A stretch of DNA of 35,229 nucleotides from an uncultured Methylococcaceae bacterium. GTDB lineage: Bacteria > Pseudomonadota > Gammaproteobacteria > Methylococcales > Methylomonadaceae. Below the pieces are notes generated by a model. It saw only the letters and a program-made list of their open reading frames with translations. It made no database searches and had not been told where the DNA came from. Location: contig CAIMEB010000092.1 of NCBI GenBank assembly GCA_903839855.1, positions 1 to 35,229 on the forward strand, written 5' to 3'. Shown piece by piece: positions 4,793 through 17,156 of the stretch. The first letter of the stretch is position 1. Every line of letters begins with the position of its first letter. The translations under genes were made by a program, and so were the position numbers.

Positions 4793-5932
4793 ATGTTGAT
4801 AAATCCGAATTTTTGTTTAGCTCTATCCTTAAGCACGCTAAAAACGATCATTAAAACATTCGTAGTTCTAAGCTTGCTTGCTACGCTATTAAGTGCTTGC
4901 AATCAAGCAGAAAAAGAAGCGCATGAAGAAATACTCACATTAGAGGCAACCACACCGTTCCGTGAAGACACCTCTGTCACGAAAGAATATGTCTGTCAAA
5001 TCCATGCTATTAGACATATCGAAGTAAGGGCCTTGGAAAGAGGCTACTTACAGAATATCTTTGTGGACGAAGGACAATTCGTGAGTAAGGGGCAGCCTAT
5101 GTTTAAAATCATGCCCAACATCTATCAGGCAGAACTCCTAAAAGAGCAAGCCGAAGCCAGCACGATGAATATCGAATACCTTAATACCAAAGGTTTGGCT
5201 GATCAAAAAATCGTATCGTCCAATGAATTGGCTTTAGCAAAAGCCAAATTAGACAAGGCTAATGCGGAAGTGAAAATGGCGGAAACCCACTTAGGATTTA
5301 CCGATATTAATGCTCCTTTTGATGGCATTATGAACCTTTTAGCGGTTAGAAACGGAAGCCTTCTTGACGAAGGTACGGTATTAACCACACTGTCCGACAT
5401 TAGCAAATTATGGGTCTATTTCAACGTCCCTGAAGCTGAATATCTGGATTATAAAATGCACAGCTCTGGAGATGAGCGTACCAAGAAAGTCCAGATAAGA
5501 ATGGCAAATGGTCAGATTTTCAATCAACCGGGCATCATTGAAACGATTGAAGCTGATTTTGATAATACTGCTGGCAATATTCAATTCCGAGCCACCTTCC
5601 CCAATCCTGACAAACTGCTTAGGCATGGCGAGACCGGAACGATTTTAATGCTCAAGCCCTACAATAACGCCATGCTCATTCCCCAAAAGGCGGTATTCGA
5701 AATTATGGATAAAAACTATGTCTACATCATCAACAAAGAAGGTAAGCTGGAACAGCGATTAATCAAAATTGAAGCCGAAATACCGCATCTTTTTATCGTA
5801 AACGAAGGGTTGCAAGACGATGATAAGATCTTGATCGAAGGCTTGCGCAAAGTGCATTCCGGTGAAGAGATAAAAATCGATTTAAAGTCGCCCGATAAGG
5901 TTCGCTCAGAGCTTGAACTGTATACAGAGTAA
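4793..5932 (+). CDS. RND efflux adaptor (membrane fusion lipoprotein, AcrA/MexE-like)
   Basis: 379-residue periplasmic adaptor linking an RND pump to its outer-membrane channel. The N-terminus is a lipoprotein signal with a hydrophobic stretch at about residues 21-34 and a lipobox LLSAC with Cys36, so it should be anchored in the inner membrane by lipid. The lipoyl half-motifs 'GYLQNIFVDEGQFVSKGQPMF' (about 78-98) and 'FDGIMNLLAVRNGSLLDEGTVL' bracket a short alpha-helical hairpin (about 110-160). A beta-barrel and membrane-proximal domain follow, ending in 'GLQDDDKILIEGLRKVHSGEEI'. The hairpin is short, as in AcrA-type adaptors. First of a three-gene operon with the pump 21 nt downstream. No TetR or LysR regulator is adjacent. 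The start codon has only a weak ribosome binding site. Confidence 0.9.
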   Translation: MLINPNFCLALSLSTLKTIIKTFVVLSLLATLLSACNQAEKEAHEEILTLEATTPFREDTSVTKEYVCQIHAIRHIEVRALERGYLQNIFVDEGQFVSKGQPMFKIMPNIYQAELLKEQAEASTMNIEYLNTKGLADQKIVSSNELALAKAKLDKANAEVKMAETHLGFTDINAPFDGIMNLLAVRNGSLLDEGTVLTTLSDISKLWVYFNVPEAEYLDYKMHSSGDERTKKVQIRMANGQIFNQPGIIETIEADFDNTAGNIQFRATFPNPDKLLRHGETGTILMLKPYNNAMLIPQKAVFEIMDKNYVYIINKEGKLEQRLIKIEAEIPHLFIVNEGLQDDDKILIEGLRKVHSGEEIKIDLKSPDKVRSELELYTE

Positions 5933-5953
5933 CCTTTTAATCAGAGACTCATT

Positions 5954-8900
5954 ATGTTTAATATATTTATCAAAAGGCCCGTAATGGCGATTGTTTTATC
6001 GCTGGTGTTTCTGTTCATGGGAGCATTGGCGATCCGAACCTTGCCGATTGCCCAATTTCCTGATATTGCACCGCCACGGGTGACGGTTGCGTTGTCGTTT
6101 CCCGGTGCCAGTGCTGATGTTCTGGTTAAGTCATCTCTGATTATGATCGAACGCGCTATTAACGGTGTGCCCGGTATGAGGTACATCACTTCGGATGCAA
6201 CCAGTGCCGGTGAATCGACTATCCAGGTTTATTTCAATCTGGGGGTTGATCCAAATATCGCCATGGTCAATGTCAAGACGCGTGTTGATCAGATGATGAG
6301 CAGACTACCAGACCTGGTGCGCTTGGAAGGCGTGATTGTAAACTTTGTCCAGCCCAGCATGCTGATGTATGTCAATCTCTACAGCAAAGACAAAAACGCC
6401 GACCAGAAGCTTTTATTTAATTATGCGTACGTCAATGTTCTTCCAGAAATTCAGCGCATATTTGGTATAGCCCAAGCAACCATATTGGGCGCTCGCCAAT
6501 ATGCAATGCGAATTTGGCTAAATCCCGACCGGATGCGGGCCTATAGCGTCTCGGTAGACGAGGTAATGGATGCCATATCAAGTCAGAGTATTATTGGGCG
6601 GGCGGGTCGATTAGGTCAAAGTACAGGTATATCAGCCCAGTCCAAAGAATATGTGCTGATCTATAAAGGCCGTTTCAGCAAGCCGGAAGAATACGAGGAC
6701 ATTATTATCCGCGCTAACCCAAATGGTGAAATCTTACGTATTAAAGACATAGGAAAGGTCGATTTAAACAGCGAGTTCTATAATATTTACTCCGATAAAG
6801 ATTCGTTCCCTTCTGCTTCGATCGTACTTAAGCAAAACTATGGAACTAATGCCAGCAAGGTCATAGAAGACGTAAAGGAAAAACTGAAAGAATTGAAAAA
6901 AACGTTCCCCGAAGGCATGGACTATGAAATCAACTACGACGTATCCAGATTTGTCGATGCGTCTATTGAGAAAGTCCTGCACACTTTAGCCGAAGCTTTC
7001 GTGCTGGTATCCTTGGTAGTGTTTGTTTTTCTGGGCGACTGGCGTTCCACATTGATCCCGATCCTTGCAGTGCCGGTTTCTCTGGTTGGAGCCTTTGCCG
7101 TTATGTCGGCGTTTGGGCTTTCGATAAACCTTATTACTTTATTTGCCTTAGTGTTAGCAATCGGTATCGTGGTAGATGATGCGATTGTGGTGGTCGAAGC
7201 CGTACATGCAAAAATGGAAGCTGAAAACGTGACCCCTTATGTTGCTTCAAAAAAAGTATTGGGCGAAATCGGTGGTGCCATTGTTGCTATAACCTTAGTC
7301 ATGGTGTCAGTGTTCATTCCTATTGCTTTTATGTCAGGACCGGTAGGCGTATTTTATCGGCAGTTCGCTATTGCTATGTCGTCTTCGATCGTTATTTCAG
7401 CGGTTGTGGCCTTATCGCTTTCTCCCGTGTTATGCGCGATGATCCTTAAAAACACGCATGGACAACACAAACGCAGAACGCCAATCAGTCTGTTCATTGA
7501 TGCATTCAACACCGTCTTTGAAAAGGTCACCGGGCGATATATAAAAATTCTTAATGTCGTCGTGATGCGGCGCTTGCTAACATTTTCGGTTTTAGGTGCG
7601 TTTTGCTTTGGTATTTATTCGGTCAGTCTAACCTTGCCTTCCGGTTTTATTCCCGGCGAAGACCAAGGCATGATTTATGCGATTATCCAAACACCACCGG
7701 GATCAACCATAGAAGTGACCAACAAAGTGGCGCGGCAACTTGAAATGATCGCCGAAAAAATTGACGGCGTACAATCGGTTTCATCCTTGGCCGGTTATGA
7801 AGTGCTCACCGAAGGTCGCGGTTCGAATGCTGGCACCTGTATCATCAATCTGAAAGACTGGTCACAGCGTAAACATTCCGTTCTGGATGTAATCCATGAA
7901 CTGGAAGAAAAAACCCATGATATGGGAGCGGTTATCGAGTATTTTCAACCCCCGGCAGTACCCGGTTACGGTGCGGCTTCCGGTTTAGCATTTCGCTTAT
8001 TGGATAAAACCATAGACACGGATTACTTCGAGTTCGATAAAATTAACCATACACTTATGGATGCGTTGCGCAAACGTAAGGAACTGACCGGTTTATTTAC
8101 CTTTTATGCGGCCAATTATCCACAATACGAACTGAAAATCGACAATAAACTGGCTATGCAAAAAGGCGTTTCTATCGAAAAGGCCATGAATAATTTGGAC
8201 ATCATGATCGGTAGTACCTACGAGCAGGGCTTCATTCGTTTCAATAACTTCTTTAAGGTCTATGCACAAGCCCTGCCAGAATTTCGACGCTTTCCTGAGG
8301 ATGTGTTGAAATACTACGTGAAAAACGATAAAGGCGATATGGTTCCTTACTCCGCCTTTATGACCATGGAGAAAAAGCAAGGGCCTAACGAGATCACTCG
8401 CTATAACCTTTATAACTCGGCGGCTATTCGTGCCGAGCCAGCAACCGGTTATACGACTGGCGATGCCATCAAGACGATCCAGGAAGTGGCTGCTGAAGTA
8501 TTACCCAAAGGTTTTGATATCGCCTGGGAAGGTTTGTCATTTGATGAAGCCAAGAGAGGTACTGAAGCGATTGAAATTTTTGTGGTCGTTATCCTGTTTG
8601 TTTACCTGGTATTAGCCGCACAGTACGAAAGCTTTCTGTTGCCGTTAATCGTGCTATTTTCGCTGCCTCCCGGTATTTTCGGTGCCTTCTTCCTGCTGAA
8701 AACATTGGGGCTTGCCAACGATGTCTACTCCCAGTTAGGGATGGTGATGCTTATTGGTTTACTCGGCAAAAACGCGGTATTGATTGTTGAATTCGCTGTA
8801 CAAAAGCAAGCCCAAGGCATGTCTGTTAAAAACGCGGCGATAGCGGGTGCCAAAGCCCGTTTTCGTCCGATTCTGATGACCTCGTTTGCGTTTATAGCCG

Positions 8901-9136
8901 GGTTAATTCCTTTAGCCATGGCAACAGGAGCCGGTGCAATCGGTAACAGAACCATCGGTACCTCTTCCTTGGGCGGAATGCTGTTCGGTACCGTGTTTGG
9001 AGTAATCATTATTCCAGGACTTTATTATATTTTTGCCAAAATGATAGAAGGTAAAAATTTAATTAAAAATGAAGATCTTGATCCATTAACAGAAACTTAT
9101 CACTACACATCAGGGGACGAAAACGATTATGACTAA
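5954..9136 (+). CDS. RND multidrug efflux permease, HAE1 family (AcrB/MexF-like)
   Basis: 1060-residue inner-membrane proton antiporter that captures hydrophobic or amphiphilic compounds from the periplasm. The start 'MFNIFIKRPVMAIVLSL' is typical of HAE1 pumps. TM4 carries the proton-relay pair Asp408-Asp409 in 'GIVVDDAIVVVE', matching AcrB Asp407/408, and the TM10 lysine is present in 'GLLGKNAVLIVEFA'. Two large periplasmic loops follow TM1 and TM7, and 12 membrane spans can be drawn. Length matches the family (about 1030-1060). The 3' end overlaps the next gene by 8 nt, so pump and channel are co-translated. Substrates cannot be predicted. The sequence is full length with no sign of damage. 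Confidence 0.95.
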   Translation: MFNIFIKRPVMAIVLSLVFLFMGALAIRTLPIAQFPDIAPPRVTVALSFPGASADVLVKSSLIMIERAINGVPGMRYITSDATSAGESTIQVYFNLGVDPNIAMVNVKTRVDQMMSRLPDLVRLEGVIVNFVQPSMLMYVNLYSKDKNADQKLLFNYAYVNVLPEIQRIFGIAQATILGARQYAMRIWLNPDRMRAYSVSVDEVMDAISSQSIIGRAGRLGQSTGISAQSKEYVLIYKGRFSKPEEYEDIIIRANPNGEILRIKDIGKVDLNSEFYNIYSDKDSFPSASIVLKQNYGTNASKVIEDVKEKLKELKKTFPEGMDYEINYDVSRFVDASIEKVLHTLAEAFVLVSLVVFVFLGDWRSTLIPILAVPVSLVGAFAVMSAFGLSINLITLFALVLAIGIVVDDAIVVVEAVHAKMEAENVTPYVASKKVLGEIGGAIVAITLVMVSVFIPIAFMSGPVGVFYRQFAIAMSSSIVISAVVALSLSPVLCAMILKNTHGQHKRRTPISLFIDAFNTVFEKVTGRYIKILNVVVMRRLLTFSVLGAFCFGIYSVSLTLPSGFIPGEDQGMIYAIIQTPPGSTIEVTNKVARQLEMIAEKIDGVQSVSSLAGYEVLTEGRGSNAGTCIINLKDWSQRKHSVLDVIHELEEKTHDMGAVIEYFQPPAVPGYGAASGLAFRLLDKTIDTDYFEFDKINHTLMDALRKRKELTGLFTFYAANYPQYELKIDNKLAMQKGVSIEKAMNNLDIMIGSTYEQGFIRFNNFFKVYAQALPEFRRFPEDVLKYYVKNDKGDMVPYSAFMTMEKKQGPNEITRYNLYNSAAIRAEPATGYTTGDAIKTIQEVAAEVLPKGFDIAWEGLSFDEAKRGTEAIEIFVVVILFVYLVLAAQYESFLLPLIVLFSLPPGIFGAFFLLKTLGLANDVYSQLGMVMLIGLLGKNAVLIVEFAVQKQAQGMSVKNAAIAGAKARFRPILMTSFAFIAGLIPLAMATGAGAIGNRTIGTSSLGGMLFGTVFGVIIIPGLYYIFAKMIEGKNLIKNEDLDPLTETYHYTSGDENDYD

Positions 9137-10559
9137 AATGTTTCATATTGTGTTGTTAATTGTGATGGGACTGATGTTGCAGGCTTGCGGTATTCCGGAA
9201 CTGACACAAAAAAATGCAGATACCCAGCTTCCTGATAGTTTTAAACCGAACCTCATCGAACAGGCCAATACGGCCAAGGTAAAATGGAAAGAGTTTTTCG
9301 AAGATCCACATCTAACACGCTTAATTGATACGGCAGTCGCCAATAACAAAGAAGTGAATATGATGATGCAGCGTATTAGCGTTGCAGAAAATGAGATTCA
9401 GGCACGTAAAGGTGCGTATTTACCCTTTGTTAATTTTGGCACCGGTGCAGGTGGTGATAAAACGGCTATGTACACCCGAAATGGTGCCGTTGAGAATAGC
9501 CTGCAATTACCCAATGGTCAGACGTTTCCTACTATGTTGGGTGATTATCAGTTTGGGCTTTTTTCAACCTGGGAAATTGATATCTGGAAGAAGCTGAGGA
9601 ATGTGAAACAAGTGGCTGTGCTGGAATACATGGCTTCAACTGAGGGTAAGAATTTTTTAATCACTAATCTGGTTGCTGAAGTTGCACGCTCGTACTATGA
9701 ACTCATTGCCTTGGACAATCAGCTTGAGAATTTAAATCAAAATATTAGCATTCAGCAAAATGGCTTGGTGATGGTAAAGCAACTACTGCTGTTTGCAAGA
9801 ACAACAACCTTGGCAGTTAAACGTTATGAAGCTGAAGTAGCCAAAAATCAAAGCAGAAAGTTTGAAATACTGCAACAGATTACCGTGACAGAAAATCGAA
9901 TCAACTTTCTGTTAGGAAGAACACCCCAGACTATCCAACGAGCCACATCTGGTTTTATGGATATCAAACCCAAAGTTATTAAGGCTGGTATTCCATCACA
10001 GCTACTACAAAACAGACCAGATATCAGGAAGGCTGAGCTTGAGCTATCGGCAGCGAAATTGAATATAGACGTGGCTAGGGCTAATTTCTATCCATCCTTT
10101 GGAATAAAGGCGGGAGTTGGGTTTGATGCTTTCGCTCTTAAGTATCTGATCAATACGCCTGAGTCCTTGGCGGCTTCTATCGCTGGCGATTTAGTGGCTC
10201 CATTGGTCAATAAGAATGCCATCATAGCAGAATATAAAAACTCAAATGTTAAGCAGATTCAGGCGGTTTATGAGTATGAGCAAAGTATTATTAACGCTTA
10301 CGCTGAAGTGGCTAATCAACTTTCAAATATAGATAATTTGGATAAAAACTATAGCCTTAAGAAATATCAGGTGGAAACACTCGTTCAGTCCATCGATGTT
10401 GCTAATCAGCTATTCAAATCGGCTCGTGCCGACTATCTAGAGGTATTATTGACTCAAAGGGACGCATTGGAGGCTAAAAGAGAACTCATTGAAACCAAAC
10501 AGAAACAGGTTATTGCAATGGTCGATCTTTATAAATCGTTGGGTGGTGGCTGGCAATAA
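9129..10559 (+). CDS. RND outer-membrane efflux lipoprotein, NodT/OprM-like
   Basis: 476-residue outer-membrane channel of the TolC superfamily. A lipoprotein signal is evident, with a hydrophobic core at residues 7-18 and lipobox LMLQAC (Cys20). The segment 'VKWKEFFEDPHLTRLIDTAVANN' at about 50-72 and 'LLQNRPDIRKAELELSAAKLNIDVARANFYPSFG' in the second half are family landmarks. Two repeated outer-membrane-factor halves occupy about 60-250 and 285-470, each with long coiled-coil-forming helices. The start ATG at 9129 lies inside the end of the pump gene (8-nt overlap). It completes the tripartite pump of this operon and is probably the exit duct for it. Confidence 0.92.
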   Translation: MTKMFHIVLLIVMGLMLQACGIPELTQKNADTQLPDSFKPNLIEQANTAKVKWKEFFEDPHLTRLIDTAVANNKEVNMMMQRISVAENEIQARKGAYLPFVNFGTGAGGDKTAMYTRNGAVENSLQLPNGQTFPTMLGDYQFGLFSTWEIDIWKKLRNVKQVAVLEYMASTEGKNFLITNLVAEVARSYYELIALDNQLENLNQNISIQQNGLVMVKQLLLFARTTTLAVKRYEAEVAKNQSRKFEILQQITVTENRINFLLGRTPQTIQRATSGFMDIKPKVIKAGIPSQLLQNRPDIRKAELELSAAKLNIDVARANFYPSFGIKAGVGFDAFALKYLINTPESLAASIAGDLVAPLVNKNAIIAEYKNSNVKQIQAVYEYEQSIINAYAEVANQLSNIDNLDKNYSLKKYQVETLVQSIDVANQLFKSARADYLEVLLTQRDALEAKRELIETKQKQVIAMVDLYKSLGGGWQ

Positions 10560-13163: not shown

Positions 13164-14819
13164 ATGAATTCTTCAAAATATAACCCTAATACCTGTCGAT
13201 TCGTACTGTTCGGAGTTGCTAGTTTGCTCTTAGCGGTTTTTGAAGTCACCCTATTAACGCTTGAATTTGACACGTCTTCTAGCGCTTTCCAAAATATGCC
13301 ATACCCTCTATATGGCAGCCTTTTGTATTCCAGTAAAGCGTTACGAATAATCATTGCCAGCCTAGGCGCCTTAGTCATTTTAAGCCTTCCTCATATAAAA
13401 CTGATACAGATTAATATTCAAAAGCAACAAAAAAATCCTTATTACTTACGTTTTTTATTTCTGCATTTTTTAACATTAGCAGGATTTTATTATCTCTGCT
13501 GGTTATTGATAGTCGCTATCCCAGGCGGCACAATCACTACAAATTTAATGGTCAATGTTTATGGTATAGGGTGGTTATTCTTGGGGTTGTTGAGTATCAC
13601 CTGTTTATTACTTTTCATTGCTGACATTGAGTTTTGGCTAGAATTGGTCAAAAAAGAAGCTAAAATATTTTTAGCGGCAGCTCTCACCGGGTTAATCTCT
13701 CAAACCATAGGTTTTTTTACTACGACTTTCTGGGAAAAATTACCTAAGTGGTCGTTTTTATTGACAAAGGATCTACTCGGCTTACTATACCCCAATGTAA
13801 TCGATGAAACAGAAAACCTTATATTAGGTGTTAATGACTTTTCTGTGGAAATTTCCCCGCAATGTTCTGGCTATGAAGGCATGGGGTTAATTACGGTATT
13901 TTTGACGTTATACCTATGGATGTTTAGAAAACAGCTACGTTTTCCACACGTGCTTATAATGTTACCGATAGGTGTTATTGCTATCTGGCTATTGAATATT
14001 GTGCGTATTACTTTGCTAATCATTATCGGTGACAAAATATCATCCAAAATTGCAACCGGCGGTTTTCATTCCAGCGCTGGCTGGATCATCTTTGTTGGAT
14101 TGAGTGTGGGATTAATTGTGGTATTACAGAAAATAAGCTTCTTTAACAAAGCGCCCGGCACAACCAGTCTGGCAGTCCAAACAGATAATACTGACAACAA
14201 AGCCTTGGCTTTATTGATACCTTTCGCTGTGTTATTGACTAGTATTTTACTAAGCAATGTTTTCAGTCATGCCTTTGATTGGTTTTATCCCTTAAAAGTT
14301 GTCATCAGTATTATGGTGCTTTGGTATTATCGAAAAATATATTGCACTTATAAGAGAGAACTTAATCCGGTTGCTGTCTTAATCGGTGTAGTAGTCTTTT
14401 TTGTCTGGCTAGCTTTAGTACCCAATACTGAAGAAGCTAATGTTAGCTTTGCCAAGAGTTTATTTTCAGAGTCCCCGACTATTGTTACTGCTTGGTTGTC
14501 ATTTAGGGTGCTAGGCGCCTGTGTAACAGTACCTATCATTGAAGAACTAGTATTTAGAGGCTATATTCTGAGTAAACTAATCAACAAAGATATTACTCAA
14601 GTTAGGGAGGGTACATTTACTTGGTTGTCATTTATCGTTTCGTCAGTGTTATTTGGTTTGTTACACGGAAATTGGCTGGCAGGAACTATGGCAGGCATGG
14701 CTTTTGCTTACGCTTTATATCGACGTGGTCATTTGTTTGACGCAGTGATAGCGCATAGTGTTACTAATTTACTGTTGTCGTTTTATGTTATCTACACTCA
14801 AAATTGGTCACTTTGGTAA
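13164..14819 (+). CDS. xrtE: Exosortase fused to a CPBP-family intramembrane protease (exosortase E/protease type)
   Basis: 551-residue polytopic membrane protein with two enzymes in one chain. The N-terminal part (about 1-325) is an exosortase: the transpeptidase triad is visible as Cys234 in 'SPQCSGYEGM', Arg281 in 'WLLNIVRI' and His302 in 'GGFHSSAGW'. Exosortases cut C-terminal sorting signals of exported proteins at the inner membrane. The C-terminal part (about 345-551) is a CPBP (CAAX-like) glutamic protease with Glu460-Glu461 and Arg465 in 'PIIEELVFRGY', His501 in 'GLLHGNW', and His531/Asn535 in 'AHSVTN'. This fusion is the hallmark of the exosortase E/VPEID-CTERM system. No protein with such a C-terminal signal lies in the window. 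Two glycosyltransferase genes follow. The start lacks a strong ribosome binding site. Confidence 0.85.
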   Translation: MNSSKYNPNTCRFVLFGVASLLLAVFEVTLLTLEFDTSSSAFQNMPYPLYGSLLYSSKALRIIIASLGALVILSLPHIKLIQINIQKQQKNPYYLRFLFLHFLTLAGFYYLCWLLIVAIPGGTITTNLMVNVYGIGWLFLGLLSITCLLLFIADIEFWLELVKKEAKIFLAAALTGLISQTIGFFTTTFWEKLPKWSFLLTKDLLGLLYPNVIDETENLILGVNDFSVEISPQCSGYEGMGLITVFLTLYLWMFRKQLRFPHVLIMLPIGVIAIWLLNIVRITLLIIIGDKISSKIATGGFHSSAGWIIFVGLSVGLIVVLQKISFFNKAPGTTSLAVQTDNTDNKALALLIPFAVLLTSILLSNVFSHAFDWFYPLKVVISIMVLWYYRKIYCTYKRELNPVAVLIGVVVFFVWLALVPNTEEANVSFAKSLFSESPTIVTAWLSFRVLGACVTVPIIEELVFRGYILSKLINKDITQVREGTFTWLSFIVSSVLFGLLHGNWLAGTMAGMAFAYALYRRGHLFDAVIAHSVTNLLLSFYVIYTQNWSLW

Positions 14820-14881
14820 CCCTGCTCTATCATTACCCATAGTGTATTGTGATCACGCTTGCTAATAGTTGAGGTAATCAA

Positions 14882-15985
14882 TTGAAAATTTTACATGTTA
14901 TTGAAAATCTAAATACAGGCGGCGCAGAAAGGATGCTGATTAACTTAGCTATCGCACAAGCGGGTCAAGATCATCAAGTAGCCGTGATCTGCTTATTCGA
15001 GTTAGGTAATCTTGCTCCCAGTTTGACTGATCAGGGGATATCTGTAACCGCTTGCTATAAAAAACCAGGTTTTACACTGTCATTTATTGGCAAACTATGT
15101 TCAAGCGTAAAAAAATTTTCTCCTGACGTTATACACTGCCATAGTTTGATGGCTAATTATTATCTGGCTTTTGTAAAACTTCTATTTGCGCCACGTGCCA
15201 CACAGATTTTAACCCGGCATGGCTTACTGAGAGGCGGAAATATTAATCGTTTAAATTTGTTATTTCATCTGTCCTTATTCATGACAGACTGGGCTGTTGG
15301 GGTCTGTGATAGCGTGAGTCAAGAATTATTTGATAAACACGAATTTTTCTCAAGAAAAATACTCACCATCAACAATGGCATTAATCTTGACACCTTTGCG
15401 CATCATAATTCTCACTCTAAATCGATGTTAATAAATAGTCTTAATCTTGATCAAAATAGTTGTATTATCGGTATCATTGCGCGTTTGAATCCCGTCAAAA
15501 ACCATCAACTATTGATCGACGCTTTTTCTCTAGTAAAAGCTGAAATCGCTCATTCAAAGCTTATTATTGTTGGTGATGGTGTGTTACGACAAGCATTAGA
15601 AGATTATACAAAACAGTTACATCTTGACTCAGAAGTCATTTTTTTAGGTGATCGATCAGATATAAATGACCTACTTGCAAGTTTCGATGTATTTGTGCTT
15701 AGCTCTAACAATGAAGGCAACTCCTTAGCGTTAATGGAAGCTGCAGCTGCTAGTTTACCTATGGTGGCAACCAATGTGGGGGGTAATGCTACTATTGTCT
15801 CGCATAATCACAGCGGTTATATTGTAGAACCCAATGAACCCAACCTGTTGGCAGATGCTTTAATCAGCATTTTGTCAAATCCAAAAAAATCGCGTGAGAT
15901 GGGAGAATTTGCCAGACGTTGGGTTGAGAAAAATGGATCTATTGAAGCGATGACAAATACATATCTAGCACTCTATCGTCACTAA
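14882..15985 (+). CDS. Glycosyltransferase family 4 protein
   Basis: 367-residue GT-B-fold glycosyltransferase of the GT4 type. The N-terminal 'HVIENLNTGGAERMLINLA' is the acceptor-domain glycine-rich start, and the C-terminal half has 'IIGIIARLNPVKNHQLLIDAF', 'LIIVGDG', and 'VLSSNNEGNSLALMEAAAA', the nucleotide-sugar binding segment with the E-x7-E-like pair. Such enzymes are cytoplasmic or membrane-associated and build polysaccharides or protein glycans. The start is a TTG at 14882 with a clear GAGGT binding site six bases upstream; no ATG fits as well. It lies 62 nt after the exosortase gene, and the next glycosyltransferase starts 4 nt downstream. Donor and acceptor sugars cannot be predicted. 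Confidence 0.88.
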   Translation: MKILHVIENLNTGGAERMLINLAIAQAGQDHQVAVICLFELGNLAPSLTDQGISVTACYKKPGFTLSFIGKLCSSVKKFSPDVIHCHSLMANYYLAFVKLLFAPRATQILTRHGLLRGGNINRLNLLFHLSLFMTDWAVGVCDSVSQELFDKHEFFSRKILTINNGINLDTFAHHNSHSKSMLINSLNLDQNSCIIGIIARLNPVKNHQLLIDAFSLVKAEIAHSKLIIVGDGVLRQALEDYTKQLHLDSEVIFLGDRSDINDLLASFDVFVLSSNNEGNSLALMEAAAASLPMVATNVGGNATIVSHNHSGYIVEPNEPNLLADALISILSNPKKSREMGEFARRWVEKNGSIEAMTNTYLALYRH

Positions 15986-15989
15986 ATTT

Positions 15990-17156
15990 ATGAAATCAAA
16001 AATTATTGTTTTTACCAATCTATTCCCTTACCCTTGGGAGCCTCAAAGAGCTACCTTTAATCGTCAACAGATTGAACATTTATCAAACGGGTATGACTTA
16101 CAAGCGTTAGTACCAATATCCTGGCTAGATTGGCTAAAGGTCAGCTTAAAAAAAACGTCTATAAAGAAACCTGTTACTGGAATTAAAGTAACTTATTTTA
16201 GGTACTTTTATATCCCCAAGATGTTACGTTGGAGCTATGGACTTACCTTGCTGATATCAACCTTAAGAGTGTTACCCAAGTTGATTCGAAAACAGCGCCC
16301 TACCGTTATCTATAGTCCATGGGCCTATCCAGATGGTTTCGTCGCCGTTATTTTAGGTAAATTACTGCATATTCCTGTAGTTATAAAAGTTCTGGGAACA
16401 GATATTAATGTGCTACCTTTAATATTCGGTGTTAAATGTCAAATTGCCTGGACATTAAAACATGCCGCTGGGGTTGTTGCTGTTAGTCAGGATTTGGCCA
16501 ACAAAGTAATTAGCTTAGGTAGTTTACCTGAAAATACTCATGTGATTTATGACGGTGTTAATCATGACAGATTTAAACCCATAAATCAGCAATACTGTCG
16601 AGACCAATGTGGTTTGAAACAAAATCTGCGAATTATTTTATACGTTGGTAATTTGTTAAACACCAAAGGTTGTCTTGACTTGGTGGAGAGTTTCTCATTA
16701 GTCAAACAACAAATACCTGATGTAATTTTATTGTATATAGGCAAAGGTGATGACTGCGCGAAAAATATTAGCAAATTAGCAACTCAACGCGGGATAAATG
16801 AGGCAGTGCATATTCTGGGAACCAAAACTCATGATGAAATAGCAATCTGGATGAACGCAAGCAATATTGTTGTCTTACCCAGTTATAATGAAGGCGTACC
16901 TAATGTACTATTAGAAGCTATGGCCTGCGGCGTTCCGGTTGTTGCAACTAACGTTGGAGGAATACCCGAAGTGGTGCCTGATTATGCGGGTGTTTTAATC
17001 AAACCAGGTGATCAACCGCTTTTAGCAGATACATTGATAACTGCTTTGTCAAAGTCTTGGGATACTAACCACATCAGTGATTATATGCTCAAATTCTCTT
17101 GGGAAAAAAATATATCAGAATTAAAATCGATTCTGAATACTAGGAGTCTGAGCTGA
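15990..17156 (+). CDS. Glycosyltransferase family 4 protein
   Basis: 388-residue GT4 enzyme, about the size of its upstream neighbour but clearly different in sequence. N-terminal 'VFTNLFPYPWEPQRATFNRQQ' and 'YSPWAYPDGFVAVILGKLLHIPVV' (about 105-130) belong to the acceptor domain. 'ILYVGNLLNTKGCLDLVESF', 'VLPSYNEGVPNVLLEAMACG' and 'VVATNVGGIPEVV' are the donor-binding part with the conserved Glu pair. ATG 15990 follows the previous stop by 4 nt, so they form one unit. The stop overlaps an ATG by one base (TGATG) that opens a short, dead-end frame. Role is inferred as surface glycan assembly linked to the exosortase locus. Confidence 0.9.
   Translation: MKSKIIVFTNLFPYPWEPQRATFNRQQIEHLSNGYDLQALVPISWLDWLKVSLKKTSIKKPVTGIKVTYFRYFYIPKMLRWSYGLTLLISTLRVLPKLIRKQRPTVIYSPWAYPDGFVAVILGKLLHIPVVIKVLGTDINVLPLIFGVKCQIAWTLKHAAGVVAVSQDLANKVISLGSLPENTHVIYDGVNHDRFKPINQQYCRDQCGLKQNLRIILYVGNLLNTKGCLDLVESFSLVKQQIPDVILLYIGKGDDCAKNISKLATQRGINEAVHILGTKTHDEIAIWMNASNIVVLPSYNEGVPNVLLEAMACGVPVVATNVGGIPEVVPDYAGVLIKPGDQPLLADTLITALSKSWDTNHISDYMLKFSWEKNISELKSILNTRSLS

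Follow-up and report, generated by a model that had tools for sequence, protein, structure and literature searches.

XrtE, an exosortase–CPBP protease fusion of an uncultured Methylococcaceae bacterium, as a putative C-terminal processing enzyme with candidate targets elsewhere in the genome

The main question raised by the locus described here is whether XrtE, which joins an exosortase and a CPBP protease in one protein, makes short peptides. The gene lies in contig CAIMEB010000092.1 (C92) of the draft genome GCA_903839855.1 (3.40 Mb in 294 contigs; here G000) of an uncultured Methylococcaceae bacterium; "the window" refers to this whole stretch of 35,229 nucleotides. XrtE may make such peptides. 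More broadly, we lean by a narrow measure towards this xrtE encoding the C-terminal processing enzyme of a VPEID-CTERM system, with targets encoded elsewhere, a division of labor between the two halves of the enzyme, and no requirement for the two glycosyltransferase genes that follow. The gene and its parts are as follows:

13164..14819, + strand: xrtE, exosortase E/CPBP protease fusion, 551 amino acids (TIGR04162, PF09721, PF02517, AlphaFold2)
13164..14153, + strand: exosortase half of XrtE, residues 1–330, with C234 (13863–13865), R281 (14004–14006) and H302 (14067–14069)
14181..14816, + strand: CPBP/Rce1-like protease half of XrtE, residues 340–551 (TIGR03008, alignment to Rce1 4cad)
14541–14546, 14556–14558, 14664–14666 and 14754–14756, + strand: protease-half residues E460-E461, R465, H501 and H531, respectively

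The 551-amino-acid product matches TIGR04162, named by NCBIfam as exosortase E/protease, VPEID-CTERM system, far beyond chance (242.9 bits, cut-off 150; protein residues 92–550 on positions 73–515 of the 516 in the model). Pfam models for Exosortase_EpsH (PF09721) and the CPBP/Rce1-like domain (PF02517; 60.7 bits, cut-off 22.4) also score above their cut-offs, and the protease half matches TIGR03008 (152 bits, cut-off 81). The exosortase–CPBP fusion recognized in a preliminary description of the locus is an already known enzyme kind, XrtE. The open reading frame (ORF) encodes a membrane protein in which the signature residues of the family are all present: the exosortase Cys/Arg/His (C234, R281, H302) and the CPBP EExxxR plus two His (E460, E461, R465, H501, H531). 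All eight are invariant among seven family members; in an alignment of 70 homologues (drawn from 87 XrtE proteins, comprising 80 named ones, that of the window and six from relatives, with 17 omitted, some of them truncated), each is invariant save H501, which is conserved at 90% or more. Family and catalytic residues are established by these comparisons, which bear out the earlier claim that both active sites are complete. The loops bearing C234 and H302 are predicted to lie outside by the positive-inside rule, applied as a mean over the 70 homologues. An AlphaFold2 model of XrtE has a mean pLDDT of 91.4 and a pTM of 0.84; in the second of two structural comparisons, Rce1 (4cad), in second row, aligned with the protease half (Z 5.8, 168 residues, root-mean-square deviation 6.0 over residues 343–550), a match not decisive alone, and nothing usable was obtained for the exosortase half.

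No protein with a sorting signal is encoded in the window, in agreement with the preliminary description: none was found among ORFs of at least 45 amino acids scanned for a P-E motif, hydrophobic helix and basic residues, nor, with a looser motif, among ORFs of at least 60 amino acids. Across the genome, the curated VPEID-CTERM model TIGR04161 produced two matches, of 18.6 (contig C210) and 10.1 bits, against a cut-off of 33, and a mini-protein encoded on contig C82 is absent from its reported matches. We attribute this failure to the limited sensitivity of TIGR04161. As only sub-threshold matches were recovered, we built our own tail profile from 38 aligned tails out of 105 collected beside XrtE in relatives, chosen by eye for diversity with clearly unrelated ones excluded. 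This profile recovers the C210 tail at E 4.0e-16 (a training row) and the C82 tail at E 1.6e-9 (outside training). PEID-type tripartite tails, therefore, do exist in the genome outside the window, as had been predicted from the lack of a local substrate.

The product of the C82 gene, MSKSAKIMLFTVLATFSFFVHADPAPVCVPEIDGSLAILGIALVSCLTAIVAERRSK, is a secretory mini-protein of 57 amino acids in which the signal peptide is followed by about six residues (DPAPVC) and these, in turn, by VPEID, a transmembrane helix and ERRSK. The alignment with its orthologue in genome G033 shows a single residue difference, and the two lengths are one residue apart; the ratio of nonsynonymous to synonymous substitution (dN/dS) for the pair is 0.018 over 56 codons (dS 0.44), which indicates a real, constrained gene. 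The C210 product is longer and resembles a protein beside a solo CPBP gene in genome G008. In the genome studied here, its N-terminal part is scattered over several frames, with a CPBP-like remnant upstream; the gene, therefore, looks broken (frameshifted), unless sequencing error is responsible. A cluster of frame-broken gene fragments, multicopper-oxidase-like by eye, adjoins it (L024:10917–12816), suggesting that the region is decaying. The C82 mini-protein is the sole intact candidate target found in the genome, and it is preferred only for being intact.

The lack of a local target is unusual, since most relatives and plasmid loci have one nearby. The best 80 of at least 251 confirmed named relatives, the closest found, span several phyla, the nearest being Methylobacter and Methylococcaceae metagenome-assembled genomes (MAGs), which makes a Methylobacter-like methanotroph of the Gammaproteobacteria the probable host. 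A tail protein, with starts and signal-peptide cleavage set by home-made rules, lies within 1 kb of xrtE in 68 of these 80 loci (upstream in 56 and downstream in 13, with one locus in both counts); tails number 85 in 149 kb near xrtE, against 6 in 780 kb of sequence more than 2.5 kb away. Four of the 12 loci without a near tail (L065, L071, L081, L084) end at a contig edge close to the gene on one side. Among plasmids, 13 records match XrtE, all at below 60% identity, and 12 carry an xrtE annotation under the match, the thirteenth having no annotation there. The 11 of these loci that were read lie outside the profile training, and ten have a tail protein (none at L194), in one case 1.7 kb downstream of xrtE; three of the 11 are Paracoccus loci with a nearly identical mini-protein, and two of the tail proteins (57 and 88 amino acids) were already annotated as VPEID-CTERM. 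Genome G018 has an XrtE gene with an insertion-sequence-like gene pair, as judged by eye, on either side in inverted orientation (L026:1739–13024); elsewhere in that genome lies a second, degenerate exosortase half, in which Tyr replaces the catalytic Cys (L027:9615–10475).

Tail and enzyme also co-occur across genomes. Searched in 61 genomes, the tail profile gave strong matches (E<1e-7) in seven (G000, G008, G016, G018, G032, G033, G060), exactly those in which TIGR04162 also matches at E<2e-8, above its cut-off in six and, in G033, through a 66-amino-acid fragment (E 1.2e-8). The best tail match in the other 54 genomes is no better than E 0.0046; two of these, G037 and G047, have weak TIGR04162 matches (1.9e-4 and 5.2e-4). 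Tails in G000, G008, G016, G032 and G060 are found partly by construction, as eight training tails come from these five genomes; the positives independent of training are G018, G033, G000:C82 and G008:C294, and the clean negatives are the stronger test. Within the class (274 genomes including this one), XrtE over the cut-off and a tail are found together in this genome alone: none of the 273 others has a tail at E≤1e-4 or XrtE over the cut-off, and eight of them match the protease part only, none with a tail. Orphan tail genes of three genomes lie near an aat-like gene, so named by eye (L147:9565–9738, L148:3277–3447, L149:9213–9959); that of L149 differs in kind from the other two.

These data are consistent with a pathway in which the precursor would be exported by Sec and lose its signal peptide, with the tail helix keeping it anchored in the inner membrane. 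The exosortase half, with C234/R281/H302 on the predicted periplasmic face, would recognize the near-constant P-E-I-D motif and cut or transfer there, while the CPBP half (E460-E461/R465/H501/H531) would recognize the lineage-variable tail helix and either make a second cut or clear the residue. The order of the cuts, the division of labor, the cognate target and the product are inferred. In a single exploratory set of 62–63 loci with 1000 permutations, distances between tails were compared with distances between enzyme halves. Over 63 loci, tail distance follows the protease half (partial r 0.42, 0/1000 permutations) and not clearly the exosortase half when the other half is controlled (0.07, 118/1000), and thinning to 39 and 16 sequences gave a similar outcome. 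With taxonomy and composition controlled (62 loci), the standardized effect is 0.43 for the protease half (0/1000) versus 0.03 for the exosortase half (386/1000). Without these added controls, a comparison restricted to the tail helix keeps a weaker exosortase signal, 0.10 (44/1000), against 0.39 for the protease half. The covariation, though exploratory, agrees with a division in which the constant motif is read by the exosortase half and the helix by the protease half.

A separate role for the CPBP half also fits two further observations. MrtX, a lone CPBP protein, is reportedly necessary and sufficient for cleavage of a sorting tag in E. coli (PMC11980579). Furthermore, two XrtE copies have lost the exosortase core through different deletions (L029:9088–10317 in G032:C88 and L032:12904–13956 in G016:C207) and keep an open CPBP half and an adjoining mini-protein, with dN/dS of 0.19 and 0.20; these values point to purifying selection on both, though some of the divergence may predate the deletions. 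The preliminary suggestion of a second cut by the fused protease is, thus, plausible as regards a distinct role for that half, and the cut itself stays a conjecture. These coreless loci also bear on another interpretation, in which the mini-proteins, each a hairpin formed by signal anchor and tail, would stabilize or regulate XrtE as accessory subunits or pseudo-substrates and not serve as its substrates; their small size, adjacency to XrtE, retained tail and persistence beside coreless CPBP copies would all suit such a role. However, the same tail occurs on larger proteins at L038, L039 and L077, as expected of a processing signal, and the N-terminal signal peptides of the targets look cleavable by eye and by a home-made rule. 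We consider an accessory role improbable.

Several observations weigh against our preferred reading of XrtE as a processing enzyme paired with the C82 target. That pairing is putative, with the two genes on separate contigs. At 0.531, the C82 tail is as far as the C210 tail from that of L037, the nearest XrtE relative, and the tail of the second-nearest relative, L038, is near that of C210 (0.087) and far from that of C82 (0.568), which favors the broken C210 gene as the original partner and keeps our confidence from being higher. Choosing between the two genes by tail similarity to XrtE relatives was, thus, indecisive and partly pointed to C210; the original partner may have been the C210 gene, now frameshifted. 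G033 keeps the C82 orthologue, yet the only XrtE sequence found in its assembly, which is 74% complete, is the fragment noted above. A solo CPBP protein of 185 amino acids, encoded on C63 close to a contig end, might itself process the target. As for the covariation, it correlates distances within an exploratory set, and when only the catalytic cores are compared, the exosortase half keeps a weak 0.16 (3/1000), against 0.30 for the protease half. Foldseek found no match of the XrtE model to the PDB at E≤0.001. Lastly, a partial search of the literature found no experiments on XrtE biochemistry.

Many targets hold little beyond a signal peptide, a short variable core and the tail. For 30 of the 85 targets located near XrtE, no more than 30 residues separate the PE motif from the probable start, so that almost no passenger is left. 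In a set of 95 targets, which reaches out to 2 kb from XrtE and takes in six mini-proteins added by hand, the core between leader and tail is at most eight residues long in 41 and the passenger exceeds 50 residues in 11 (core lengths are approximate). Among 38 pairs of targets within the same locus (14 loci), identity is 0.50 in the leader, 0.21 in the core and 0.81 in the tail, with the core below the leader in 13 of the 14 loci and below the tail in all 14; nine pairs of related loci gave 0.50, 0.24 and 0.81, respectively. A separate set of 34 pairs had been chosen for similar leader and tail; hence, our reading is based on the within-locus pairs, which were unselected. One Marinicaulis MAG has two XrtE loci (L102:8655–9435 and L105:7298–8085) that each contain a tandem array of four mini-targets, with a similar leader, a near-identical tail and different cores. 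Matching members of the two arrays keep their cores (GQAVK/GQAVK, dS 0.67; SIPTHE/SIPMHE, dS 0.48), and a third matching core, of 25 residues with two cysteines, is 64% identical (dS 0.93). Cys is present in 14 of 67 cores of at most 25 residues, although six of the 14 were hand-added and at least three of the cysteines may lie in the signal peptide.

This architecture raises the possibility that XrtE is a two-cut peptide factory and not a protein-anchoring sortase: precursors of 50–70 residues, in several phyla, would consist of leader, short variable core and follower, the two active sites would release or attach the core peptide, and the protease half would read the follower helix, so that follower and protease evolve together. 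The prevalence of very short cores, their variability within loci, the tandem arrays with distinct cores (two of them kept in the duplicated array) and the cysteines in short cores all argue for it, as does an analogy in the processing of AgrD, a short precursor on which the CPBP protein MroQ acts with AgrB to yield autoinducing peptides (PMC10482373). However, the passengers of more than 50 residues include secreted proteins of about 250 amino acids (one weakly DUF4114-like, 16.3 bits, cut-off 27), and variable cores may be mere unconstrained spacers. In a Pfam scan of the downstream side, moreover, 117 neighbors (of 125, the other eight, which overlapped XrtE or a tail gene or were of great length, having been dropped by hand) included no frequent family, the commonest occurring in six and histidine kinase domains in three. 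Weighing these points, we regard this proposal, both as peptide maturation in general and in the specific two-cut form, as rather unlikely.

Directly following xrtE are two further genes:

14882..15985, + strand: GT1, GT4 glycosyltransferase, 367 amino acids, TTG start; a neighbor, probably outside the system (PF00534/PF13439)
15990..17156, + strand: GT2, GT4 glycosyltransferase, 388 amino acids; a neighbor, probably outside the system (PF00534)

As originally described, both follow closely, with gaps of 62 bases between xrtE and GT1 and four bases between GT1 and GT2, and all three genes are co-directional on the + strand. Pfam finds GT4-type domains in both products; GT1 scores 226.1 bits with TIGR03088, the PEP-CTERM/XrtA glycosyltransferase model (cut-off 409), and GT2 scores 156 bits with a TuaC-like model (cut-off 550), each below the cut-off. 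The preliminary description suggested that these genes and XrtE work together, so that sorted proteins would receive sugars or would contribute to a surface glycan. Besides their tight spacing and the resemblance of GT1 to an XrtA-associated family, the three genes have a common low G+C (0.374–0.380 versus 0.413 for the window) and may, therefore, have arrived as one block; in addition, at three of the 11 plasmid xrtE loci, a gene of GT4, glycosyltransferase or sugar transferase type is no farther than about 2.5 kb away, in one case a GT4 gene 106 bases from xrtE on the opposite strand. One XrtE copy in G016 is near three GT2-like genes, so named by eye, on the other strand.

The wider survey does not uphold this association as a rule. 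The GT4 proteins of the window served as queries against flanks of 10 kb at most, or less where a contig ended. Of the best 80 named loci, L088 alone has a GT4 gene in its flanks at E<1e-8, and three have one at E<0.01, never downstream on the same strand; none of 14 other loci from this genome and its relatives has one. No glycosyltransferase family was matched by two or more of the 117 downstream neighbors (families with a single member were partly listed), and no match to GT1 among 40 relatives (E≤1e-40) exceeds 32% identity. GT2 was never found on the 3′ side of pnp in 24 other genomes of the same genus, each examined over at most 1.5 kb, of which L168 and L181 show almost no sequence 3′ of pnp. 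The C82 target, moreover, would offer only about six residues to modify. A single system of XrtE and both glycosyltransferases is, accordingly, very improbable, and linkage as a general XrtE feature was rejected; GT1 and GT2 are probably adjacent genes and not required parts. Proximity of XrtE to surface-glycan genes may be an occasional neighborhood and no working unit, and a looser link may exist in some lineages.

Promoter predictions were near the shuffled expectation (17 versus 14.3, standard deviation 3.6) and were not used; nor were the terminator predictions (7 versus 3.1 shuffled, standard deviation 1.8), one of which falls in the interval from GT2 to pnp, on the strand of the latter. 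Elsewhere in the window, consecutive RND efflux genes for adaptor, permease and outer membrane channel occupy positions 4793–10559.

The locus most closely resembles the XrtE/VPEID-CTERM system (TIGR04162 with TIGR04161) in its domain order, active-site residues, score over the cut-off and P-E-I-D tails in the genome; it differs in having no adjoining target gene, tails below the TIGR04161 cut-off, and two GT4 genes following. Exosortase A or B/PEP-CTERM systems share the exosortase catalytic half and the tripartite C-terminal signal, but have no fused protease, a PEP instead of a PEID motif, and an EpsI partner. A second exosortase system is present on contig C57 of this genome (L021:8786–11117), with XrtB (312 bits, cut-off 275), a B-type EpsI and an adjacent PEP-CTERM-like protein, the single match in the genome to the PEP-CTERM model TIGR02595. 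AgrD is not known to carry a Sec signal peptide plus PEID tail. AgrB and MroQ are likewise two membrane proteases, one of them CPBP, acting on a short precursor (PMC10482373); they are separate proteins, and a peptide product of XrtE is only putative. MrtX of the MYXO-CTERM system is also a CPBP-fold enzyme removing a C-terminal sorting tag, but it is a stand-alone CPBP with a Cys-containing motif, many targets and no exosortase domain (PMC11980579). A dedicated sorting enzyme with one neighboring target is an established notion (PMC3237569).

The xrtE of the window belongs to an annotated enzyme kind, and the value added here is a testable picture of a system for which the literature searched held no experiments. 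The idea of a fused protease with its own part in processing is a reasonable one. The tail profile finds targets that the curated TIGR04161 fails to pass, and a tempting general link to glycosyltransferases is removed as unsupported. In the picture that results, targets are often nearly all signal, their cores vary while leader and tail persist, and the tail evolves with the protease half of XrtE.

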